Below, piece after piece: positions 44,532-46,591 of a stretch of 64,000 bases of DNA. The stretch spans positions 2,914,001 through 2,978,000 of the forward strand of contig CP121691.1 of assembly GCA_038396585.1 (NCBI GenBank), read 5' to 3'. The DNA comes from Vallitaleaceae bacterium 9-2. Its GTDB lineage: Bacteria; Bacillota; Clostridia; Lachnospirales; Vallitaleaceae. Both the position numbers and the translations under genes were made by a program. The notes under the pieces are model-generated. The model did not search any database and was not told the DNA's origin. It saw only the letters and a list, made by a program, of their open reading frames with translations. The number at the start of each line of letters is the position of its first letter. Position 1 is the stretch's first letter.

Positions 44532-45200
44532 CTATACCCCTAATATTATTTCTATTTCTTGTTTCATTTTCTCACCCCATGCAAACGGATCTTTATGAAA
44601 TGACACCGTTTCTATACGTCCTTTAACTTTTTGCTGTAAGTGCCTTTTTTCTTCTTTTGTTCCACAGGTTAAAATGAGTATGAGATCTTTATATTTTTGT
44701 ATATTAACATGGGCAATCTTTTGATAGTATTCTTCAATTTTATGGTATTTCCAGTCATTGCCTCTGCCAACGACTAGCTGCATATCCATTTGATTAAACA
44801 TATCTTCCTTCTTTTTTTCATGCTCCCCAAAATCTACAATAACGACTTGATAACCACTTCTTCGAACGAAAGCAATCCGTTCATCGTTTCCTTGTTCATA
44901 ATAATGGACTCGACGAAAGACATAAGGTTCATTGAAATCATGGCTGCTTTTTGATACTCCCTCCTGCCCTTCATATGTTCTGCGTATCATCGCTATTGCG
45001 TCTTGATCGCCCCATTCAACAACAGCCACTTTACCCCGCTGTTTTGAAAAATAGCGCGCCAAAAGTAGTGATGTATGTGTAACACCAGCACCTTTTTCCG
45101 TACCAATCAAACCAATCATTATGACTTTATGCTTTTCTGAAATTTTATTTTGAATTTTTCGATGTCGAAAAAAGTTTCTGCCGTGACGGATGCTAAGCAT
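44532..45200 (-). CDS. CpaE/MinD-like ATPase
   Basis: A 222-residue P-loop protein. GLIGTEKGAGVTHTSLLLAR at about residues 29-48 is a deviant Walker A that keeps the first (signature) lysine but has Val in place of the second. VVIVDFGEHEKKKEDMF is the switch II-like segment and DLILILTCGTKEEK a later core strand. The first 25 residues are basic (RHGRNFFRHRKIQ). The ATG at 45200 follows GGGGAG. The first 82 bases overlap the 3' end of the kinase-fusion gene in another frame, the longest overlap in this operon. Confidence 0.72.
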   Translation of the reverse strand: MLSIRHGRNFFRHRKIQNKISEKHKVIMIGLIGTEKGAGVTHTSLLLARYFSKQRGKVAVVEWGDQDAIAMIRRTYEGQEGVSKSSHDFNEPYVFRRVHYYEQGNDERIAFVRRSGYQVVIVDFGEHEKKKEDMFNQMDMQLVVGRGNDWKYHKIEEYYQKIAHVNIQKYKDLILILTCGTKEEKRHLQQKVKGRIETVSFHKDPFAWGEKMKQEIEIILGV

Positions 45201-46591
45201 TGCTCTCCCCTCCCCCAATCATTAAAGACTTCATTATAAAACTGTTGATATCTTACATCCTCAAGTGCCTCCATTTTGTCGTATGGATAATCATATACAT
45301 AGATATGCTCTAGAGAATGGTTAAGCTCATCAACTTGGTTTTTATTGCTATGATTAATGAAATAGACAGTCCGTTTAGTCGTGTTTTCCATGAAAAACTC
45401 TTCTAGTCTGCTCATCTCCCATGGTGCAATTCCAGCAACTATAATATTATATGCCCCAATAAAATCTTGTTTGCTTTGATTATCGTGCGTTCCAAAATCC
45501 ACGACTATCCAGTCACACGCTTCGAAAATATCTTTGAATAATACACCAGTCCCTCGACGTTGCCCAGTACATGAAAGTATCGTCATTGCATTCCATTTTA
45601 ATAGCCCCTCTTCTATTGTCGCGTCATGTGTATATTCCAAAGACATCAAGTCCTGGTTTTCACTCATATCGACAACAACACATTTTTTTTTGCATGCTAA
45701 TAGATACTTTGTCAATGTTGTTGAAACATGGGTTGCTCCTATACCTGATTTAACTCCAGATACGCATATGACCTTATCTTTATAGGCAGATAAAAAAGTA
45801 TCAATAGATTCTTGAGTCTGGATTTTTAATGTTTTTTCTAAAGCACTCTTTAATTGGGTAATGGATGCATACCGTTGTTCAATATTAAATTGACTCGCTT
45901 TTTGTATGATTTGCTCAACCTCTTCACCGACATCATCTCGAATAAATCGAATAGGTTCTAGGCGCGAAGAAACTTCCTCAAGATTTTTACGCGTCAACAT
46001 AAAATAGAGCAAAATTCCAACTCCAAAAACGTCTGTACGCACATCTGTCTGACCCATACCGTATTGCTCCGGTGCTGCAAATCCTCGCGTACCCAAGTAC
46101 TCTGTATCTGCATCTTTATTGCTTTGATAAAATCTGGCAATGCCAAAGTCAATAAGGTGTACTTTGTTTTGATTAGACAAGATAATATTATCTGGCTTAA
46201 TATCTCGATAAATTAATGGATTGTCAAAATGTGTATGTAAATATTCAAGGACACAACAAATATCGATAGCAATTTTAACTGCCATGACTTCTGACATGAC
46301 ACCTTTTTCTCGAATGATTTCTCCAAGTGTCTTGCCTTCAATATATTCTCGAATAACATATGTTGTCTCCGCGTCAATAAAGACATCCGTAATTAAAGGG
46401 ATATTTTCATGATTCAGTGATTTTAAAATTTGGATTTCATTTGTATAGATTGGATTCCTTGAACATATTTTTTTTATGATCCAAGATGAATGTAAATAGA
46501 TATGTTTTGCTTCATAAACCGAAACCGCCTCCGATTCTTTGATTACTCGGATGATTTCGTATTTATCAAATACAACCTCTCCCACTCGCAT
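45119..46591 (-). CDS. Ser/Thr protein kinase fused to a CpaE-like P-loop domain
   Basis: A 490-residue cytosolic protein. Residues 1-255 are a Hanks-type kinase: catalytic loop YRDIKPDN (128-135), DFG (148-150), GTRGFAAPEQYG (activation segment and APE, 167-178) and a probable VAIK-type lysine at 40 or 41. The glycine-rich loop is degenerate (VIKESEAVSVYEAK). Residues 270-490 form a MinD/CpaE-like domain with a deviant Walker A, CVSGVKSGIGATHVST (276-291), in which the second lysine is Ala, as in many CpaE. It lacks a membrane span and PASTA repeats, unlike PknB/PrkC. It is the first gene of the operon and may sense state and position the machine. Confidence 0.82.
   Translation of the reverse strand: MRVGEVVFDKYEIIRVIKESEAVSVYEAKHIYLHSSWIIKKICSRNPIYTNEIQILKSLNHENIPLITDVFIDAETTYVIREYIEGKTLGEIIREKGVMSEVMAVKIAIDICCVLEYLHTHFDNPLIYRDIKPDNIILSNQNKVHLIDFGIARFYQSNKDADTEYLGTRGFAAPEQYGMGQTDVRTDVFGVGILLYFMLTRKNLEEVSSRLEPIRFIRDDVGEEVEQIIQKASQFNIEQRYASITQLKSALEKTLKIQTQESIDTFLSAYKDKVICVSGVKSGIGATHVSTTLTKYLLACKKKCVVVDMSENQDLMSLEYTHDATIEEGLLKWNAMTILSCTGQRRGTGVLFKDIFEACDWIVVDFGTHDNQSKQDFIGAYNIIVAGIAPWEMSRLEEFFMENTTKRTVYFINHSNKNQVDELNHSLEHIYVYDYPYDKMEALEDVRYQQFYNEVFNDWGRGEQCLASVTAETFFDIEKFKIKFQKSIKS

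Follow-up and report, generated by a model that had tools for sequence, protein, structure and literature searches.

A Ser/Thr kinase joined to a CpaE/TadZ-type domain heads Tad pilus operons in Bacillota

We analyzed a 64,000-nucleotide stretch of the genome of Vallitaleaceae bacterium 9-2 (hereafter, the window) and found, at the head of a Tad operon, a gene that joins a Hanks kinase to a MinD/ParA-like domain. Its product is probably a dedicated Ser/Thr kinase of the Tad machine, docked there by a CpaE/TadZ-type domain without the ATPase lysine. Kinases tied to secretion machines are already known; a kinase-CpaE fusion is not described in the open literature that we searched. This full-text search, with subscription papers mostly outside its scope, returned neither a kinase-CpaE-type fusion nor a Tad-operon kinase, and NCBIfam holds no model for a kinase-CpaE fusion.

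A single, long-standing gene

The fusion gene (45119..46591; all window features written in this form lie on the minus strand) is one open frame of 490 amino acids that starts with ATG at 46591, with a ribosome-binding site, AAGGAG (46597..46602), read from the sequence 5 bases 5' of the start. The initial annotation had described one frame joining a kinase to a MinD/CpaE-like domain, without giving the strand, and the frame is indeed intact. The gene is the first of a divergent Tad operon, which is set apart by a strong terminator-like hairpin 3' of prs (46868..46899). Since this hairpin ends the prs transcript, the fusion gene begins its own transcription unit. A promoter-like site, TTGATG-17-TATAAT (46698..46726), matches the consensus, although the scan yields such sites near chance level. 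Rfam gave no match near the gene.

We rejected an assembly error or a split gene as the origin of the fusion. The initial annotation had suggested looking for separate genes in neighboring genomes, and none of the 22 family genomes (the window's own and 21 others) carries them: each encodes the fusion as one intact open frame of about 480-530 amino acids, and its presence as such in the 21 other genomes excludes a joining error. Most relatives from other genera share only about 24-30% identity with the window protein; that the frame nevertheless stays single throughout the family marks the fusion as a long-standing architecture. In the nearest other species, the kinase half is 75% conserved versus 49% for the C-terminal domain.

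An intact catalytic set and a degenerate glycine loop

Residues 1-259 (45815..46591) form a Hanks Ser/Thr kinase domain, certain from its PF00069 match at residues 24-259 (E = 3.5e-39). The domain is modeled as a PknB/StkP-like fold (AF2 pLDDT about 90; Foldseek PknB 1.7e-19), so that by structure prediction, an analysis that had been proposed for exposing a dead kinase, it does not appear dead. The motifs named in the initial annotation are in place, namely the catalytic loop YRDIKPDN (residues 128-135, 46187..46210; YRD for HRD), the DFG motif (residues 148-150, 46142..46150, from sequence and alignment), and APE, and the VAIK-type Lys40 and Glu52 are also present. Lys40, Glu52, Asp130, Lys132, Asn135, and Asp148 are invariant in all 39 aligned proteins from outside family f6, which is treated separately below.

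The glycine loop was rightly called degenerate: in the alignment, the window protein reads I-KESEAVSV-Y (KESEAVSV, residues 18-25, 46517..46540) where relatives have GxGGxxxV, and GxGxxG is absent. This loop is normal in most relatives, lost in the window's genus (g1) and in genus g8, and irregular in some f6 members. Plain decay was rejected as the reason for the loss, as the two genera form one clade (support 100/98) and all catalytic residues are kept. With its catalytic set intact but this loop degenerate, the window protein may be catalytically active.

The fusion shares its kinase fold and catalytic set with the Hanks kinases PrkC, PknB, and Stk1. It differs from them in being joined to a MinD-like domain and, as had been pointed out, in having neither PASTA repeats nor a membrane span, none being found in the fusion protein by profile and topology searches; its one hydrophobic stretch (residues 97-116) is a kinase helix in the model.

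An apparently maintained fold of the MinD/ParA type

The C-terminal domain (residues 262-490, 45122..45808) is a MinD/ParA/CpaE-like pseudo-ATPase domain. A profile of 28 relatives matched ParA best among PDB structures (3k9g, 7.5e-10), followed by FlhG, MinD, and, weakly, TadZ (3fkq, 0.019); the tyrosine kinases CapB, BceF, Etk, and Wzc were also among the matches. Its Walker A motif is degenerate (KSGIGATH, residues 281-288, 45728..45751), and the second Walker lysine is Ala286, as first read. A lysine at position 286 occurs in 3 of 88 aligned homologous domains (L090, L092, and L138) and is absent from the other 85. Other positions are better preserved across the 88 domains: Gly285 in 88, Thr/Ser287 in 87, and Asp365 in 85, with the signature Lys281 in 13. 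The domain thus looks like a maintained pseudo-ATPase fold. With the Walker A lysine gone in 85 of 88 domains, and usually the signature lysine too, MinD-style ATP-driven positioning by the fusion protein appears unlikely. The AlphaFold model of this domain had low confidence (mean pLDDT 44.5, shallow alignment) and was not used, and in a test for a C-terminal amphipathic helix the hydrophobic moment did not clearly exceed that of shuffled sequences, a fraction of 0.17 of which reached it.

The kinase stands at the place of a receiver

CpaE/TadZ proteins consist of a receiver followed by a MinD-like domain. Genomes of genus g7 have, at the window-type Tad locus and at one other Tad-like locus, a gene for a protein of 427-503 amino acids in which a GxGTTH domain follows a receiver-like N-terminal region (Response_reg match of 0.0017 in L149, below the curated cut-off, and weaker or absent in others). 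Profile comparison with hhalign relates the C-terminal domain of the fusion to these receiver-CpaE proteins (99.9%, E = 5.6e-35). Since in sister loci the homologous domain is preceded by a receiver-like region, the kinase is, by this comparison, at the position of the CpaE/TadZ receiver. In function, the fusion would resemble a CpaE that takes its input through a kinase, but we do not file it as CpaE, because both the receiver and the lysine for ATP binding were looked for and are absent. It has in common with CpaE/TadZ the MinD/ParA-type domain with an atypical Walker A, the Tad operon, and the homology to a domain in sister loci; it differs in that a Hanks kinase replaces the receiver-like N-terminus and the Walker A lysine is lost.

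The Tad operon of the window

Directly downstream of the fusion is CpaE2 (44532..45218, probable start 45200), a second CpaE-like pseudo-ATPase with the motif GAGVTH, which is related to the fusion's C-terminal domain (hhalign 99.9%, E = 2e-34). About 80-100 bases of its frame lie within the 3' end of the fusion gene (45119-45218), and similar overlaps occur in several other genera with varying relative frames. A programmed frameshift joining the two genes through this overlap was rejected, since the relative frame varies between genera. Then follow a CpaB/RcpC-like SAF-domain protein with an N-terminal membrane helix (43464..44522; the SAF match is weak here and over the cut-off in the relative L129), a 202-amino-acid operon protein conserved by synteny (42926..43534), and ParA3 (42127..42948; AAA_31 5.8e-5), a third MinD/ParA-like protein, with TGQTT and no Walker A lysine. 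The operon therefore holds three MinD/ParA-like domains (42127-45808), none with a Walker A lysine, while the motor keeps its own; among f50 relatives (L135-L137), the ParA3-type proteins carry this lysine.

The motor is a CpaF-type Tad ATPase (40311..42176) with an N-terminal membrane helix and an intact Walker A, QGSGKTT. Its profile matched CpaF structures best (9.5e-14), the next match being CFTR (2e-5). It has a long extra N-terminal region, 58% mean column identity, and a poor score with Pfam T2SSE. The platform and the pilins were named by gene order and topology, not homology. A six-helix membrane protein (38489..40366) is probably a fused TadB/TadC platform by position and topology; it gave no profile match and nothing in the PDB search. 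This single protein lies where TadB and TadC are expected, and it may be a fused platform as in archaeal pili. Synteny and topology further identified a pilin-like small protein with one N-terminal membrane helix (37970..38455) and three more single-helix, pseudopilin-like small proteins of 139, 180, and 246 amino acids (36340..37970). After these lies a rhomboid-protease-like gene (35207-36283), as in several genera. The window operon contains no prepilin peptidase; the genome's clear Peptidase_A24 adjoins PilB/PilT genes elsewhere.

Distribution across Bacillota

Seven of the family's eight genera share the window's gene order, though a few lack CpaE2. In the eighth, g7, the fusion heads a different Tad operon of more canonical layout (fusion, CpaB, receiver-CpaE, CpaF, TadB, TadC), so that within the family the fusion always heads Tad genes. 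It also heads Tad operons elsewhere in the order (f4, f14, f3), in the class (f31, f50), and in other classes of the phylum (f121, f110). A complete Tad operon headed by the fusion occurs in another class, and overall the arrangement spans two operon types and at least two classes. One genome with two Tad operons (G008) has a separate fusion in each. Among 48 loci outside f6 whose surroundings were read, picked by score and not randomly, Tad genes directly follow the fusion in 38 and do not adjoin it in 10 (L082, L138, L139, L234-L236, and L239-L242). This first-gene position in Tad operons across many Bacillota suggests that a kinase built into the machine controls these pili. At two further loci (L097 and L098), other kinases, without a MinD-like domain, adjoin a PP2C and large surface proteins of 2321 and 1915 amino acids.

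Family f6 is an exception. There, the fusion is retained together with CpaE2, often with CpaB and often adjoining a MecA-like gene (L083-L096, L184-L223); at a threshold of E 1e-20, 23 of 46 genomes have a gene for the window-type motor at another site, in one case a fragment. The catalytic loop is changed in 25 of 39 f6 fusions sampled, recurrently to K132Q or N135H with the other residues kept. It is intact in 12 and changed in 7 of the motor-containing genomes, against 2 and 18 of the motor-lacking ones (Fisher p = 0.0008, raw, although the tree shows only about 3 and 4 changes). We do not claim the substitution as a proven result of motor loss, given the few tree changes and an independent-pairs test without power; as shared ancestry explains much of it, the association is a lead only.

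Phospho-signaling parts near the fusion

At locus L237 (2910-13245), a run on one strand encodes DUF6382-FHA, PP2C, the kinase fusion, CpaB, receiver-CpaE, CpaF, TadB, and TadC (FHA 8.1e-17, PP2C 1.2e-13), with neighboring genes no more than about 40 bases apart. Variants of the type VII secretion system (T7SS) likewise include a kinase, a PPM phosphatase, and DUF6382-FHA (PMC11217815). Like the threonine-phosphorylation modules of the type VI system (T6SS) and the T7SS variants (PMC11217815), the fusion would place a kinase on a secretion machine, and L237 has the same three kinds of parts; the machine here, however, is a Tad pilus, and the window genome has neither an FHA protein nor a PP2C in its operon. 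Indeed, no FHA match was found in the whole window genome, while control genomes do match, and the genome encodes two Hanks kinases and one PP2C, the latter beside PrkC. With no FHA reader, the effect of the kinase there should be direct. The Tad-like Kil apparatus of Myxococcus also shows signs of phospho-signaling, with FHA on the motor and other parts, but the text describing it mentions no kinase, hence no kinase-CpaE-type fusion (PMC8460266).

Discussion

In the mechanism that we infer, the C-terminal domain is a docking module of the CpaE/TadZ type whose ATPase lysine has been lost, and together with its paralogue CpaE2 it would be part of the CpaE ring that surrounds the CpaF motor. Docking there would hold the kinase beside the motor and might thereby give it control over it. 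If active, the kinase would act on Ser/Thr residues of cytoplasmic Tad components (CpaF, CpaE2, and platform loops), and their phosphorylation would switch assembly or pilus dynamics; in the window genome, reversal would fall to the one PP2C found, which lies beside PrkC. For Caulobacter, a ring of six CpaE dimers was fitted to the CpaF hexamer; its dimer-dimer contacts were attributed to the receiver domains, and CpaE moves to the motor base in the piliated state (PMC13170226). A study of CpaF counts phosphorylation among possible direction switches (PMC11300603). The initial annotation had tied phosphorylation to placement of the machine. The dedicated link to Tad holds, given the operon, while ATP-driven positioning does not fare well in view of the lost lysine; because CpaE is modeled as a ring around CpaF in Caulobacter (PMC13170226), a role in motor control is no less likely than one in positioning.

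The degenerate glycine loop of g1 and g8 bears on a different reading, in which the kinase domain performs no useful phosphotransfer and is a pseudokinase scaffold, a structural substitute for the receiver in the CpaE ring. The substituted catalytic loops of f6, found even in some genomes that keep the motor, and the fusions that persist without a motor gene also fit it. We nonetheless consider it rather improbable, since the window protein and all 39 homologues outside f6 keep the six catalytic residues, the glycine loop is normal in most relatives, and FHA and PP2C accompany the fusion in L237. Those f6 fusions without a motor gene, together with the ten solitary ones, would fit an active kinase whose targets are general (cell cycle, envelope) and which the CpaE-like domain only localizes, the Tad linkage then reflecting regulatory co-expression. 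This seems distinctly unlikely, since the fusion persistently comes first in two types of Tad operon and G008 has separate copies. A double kinase, with a bacterial tyrosine-kinase (Wzc/CapB-like) domain at the C-terminus, would fit the tyrosine-kinase matches in the PDB; it is disfavored and very improbable, as ParA is the best match, a functional Walker A is absent, and the receiver-CpaE proteins are the closest homologues.

Taking the fusion, then, as a dedicated Tad kinase, it is possible, though speculative, that it marks a widespread class of Bacillota Tad machines with their own threonine-phosphorylation system, in which a kinase in the CpaE ring gears the single CpaF motor between extension, retraction, and arrest and replaces the receiver-based input of CpaE. 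One candidate for the switch by which a single-ATPase Tad machine passes between extension and retraction is phosphorylation (PMC11300603), and a kinase on a CpaE-type domain, encoded first in the operon, makes this idea directly testable. With the fusion, a threonine-phosphorylation logic known from the T6SS and proposed for T7SS variants would also reach a third kind of envelope machine, and post-translational regulation may be at work in the little-studied Tad pili of Gram-positive bacteria.
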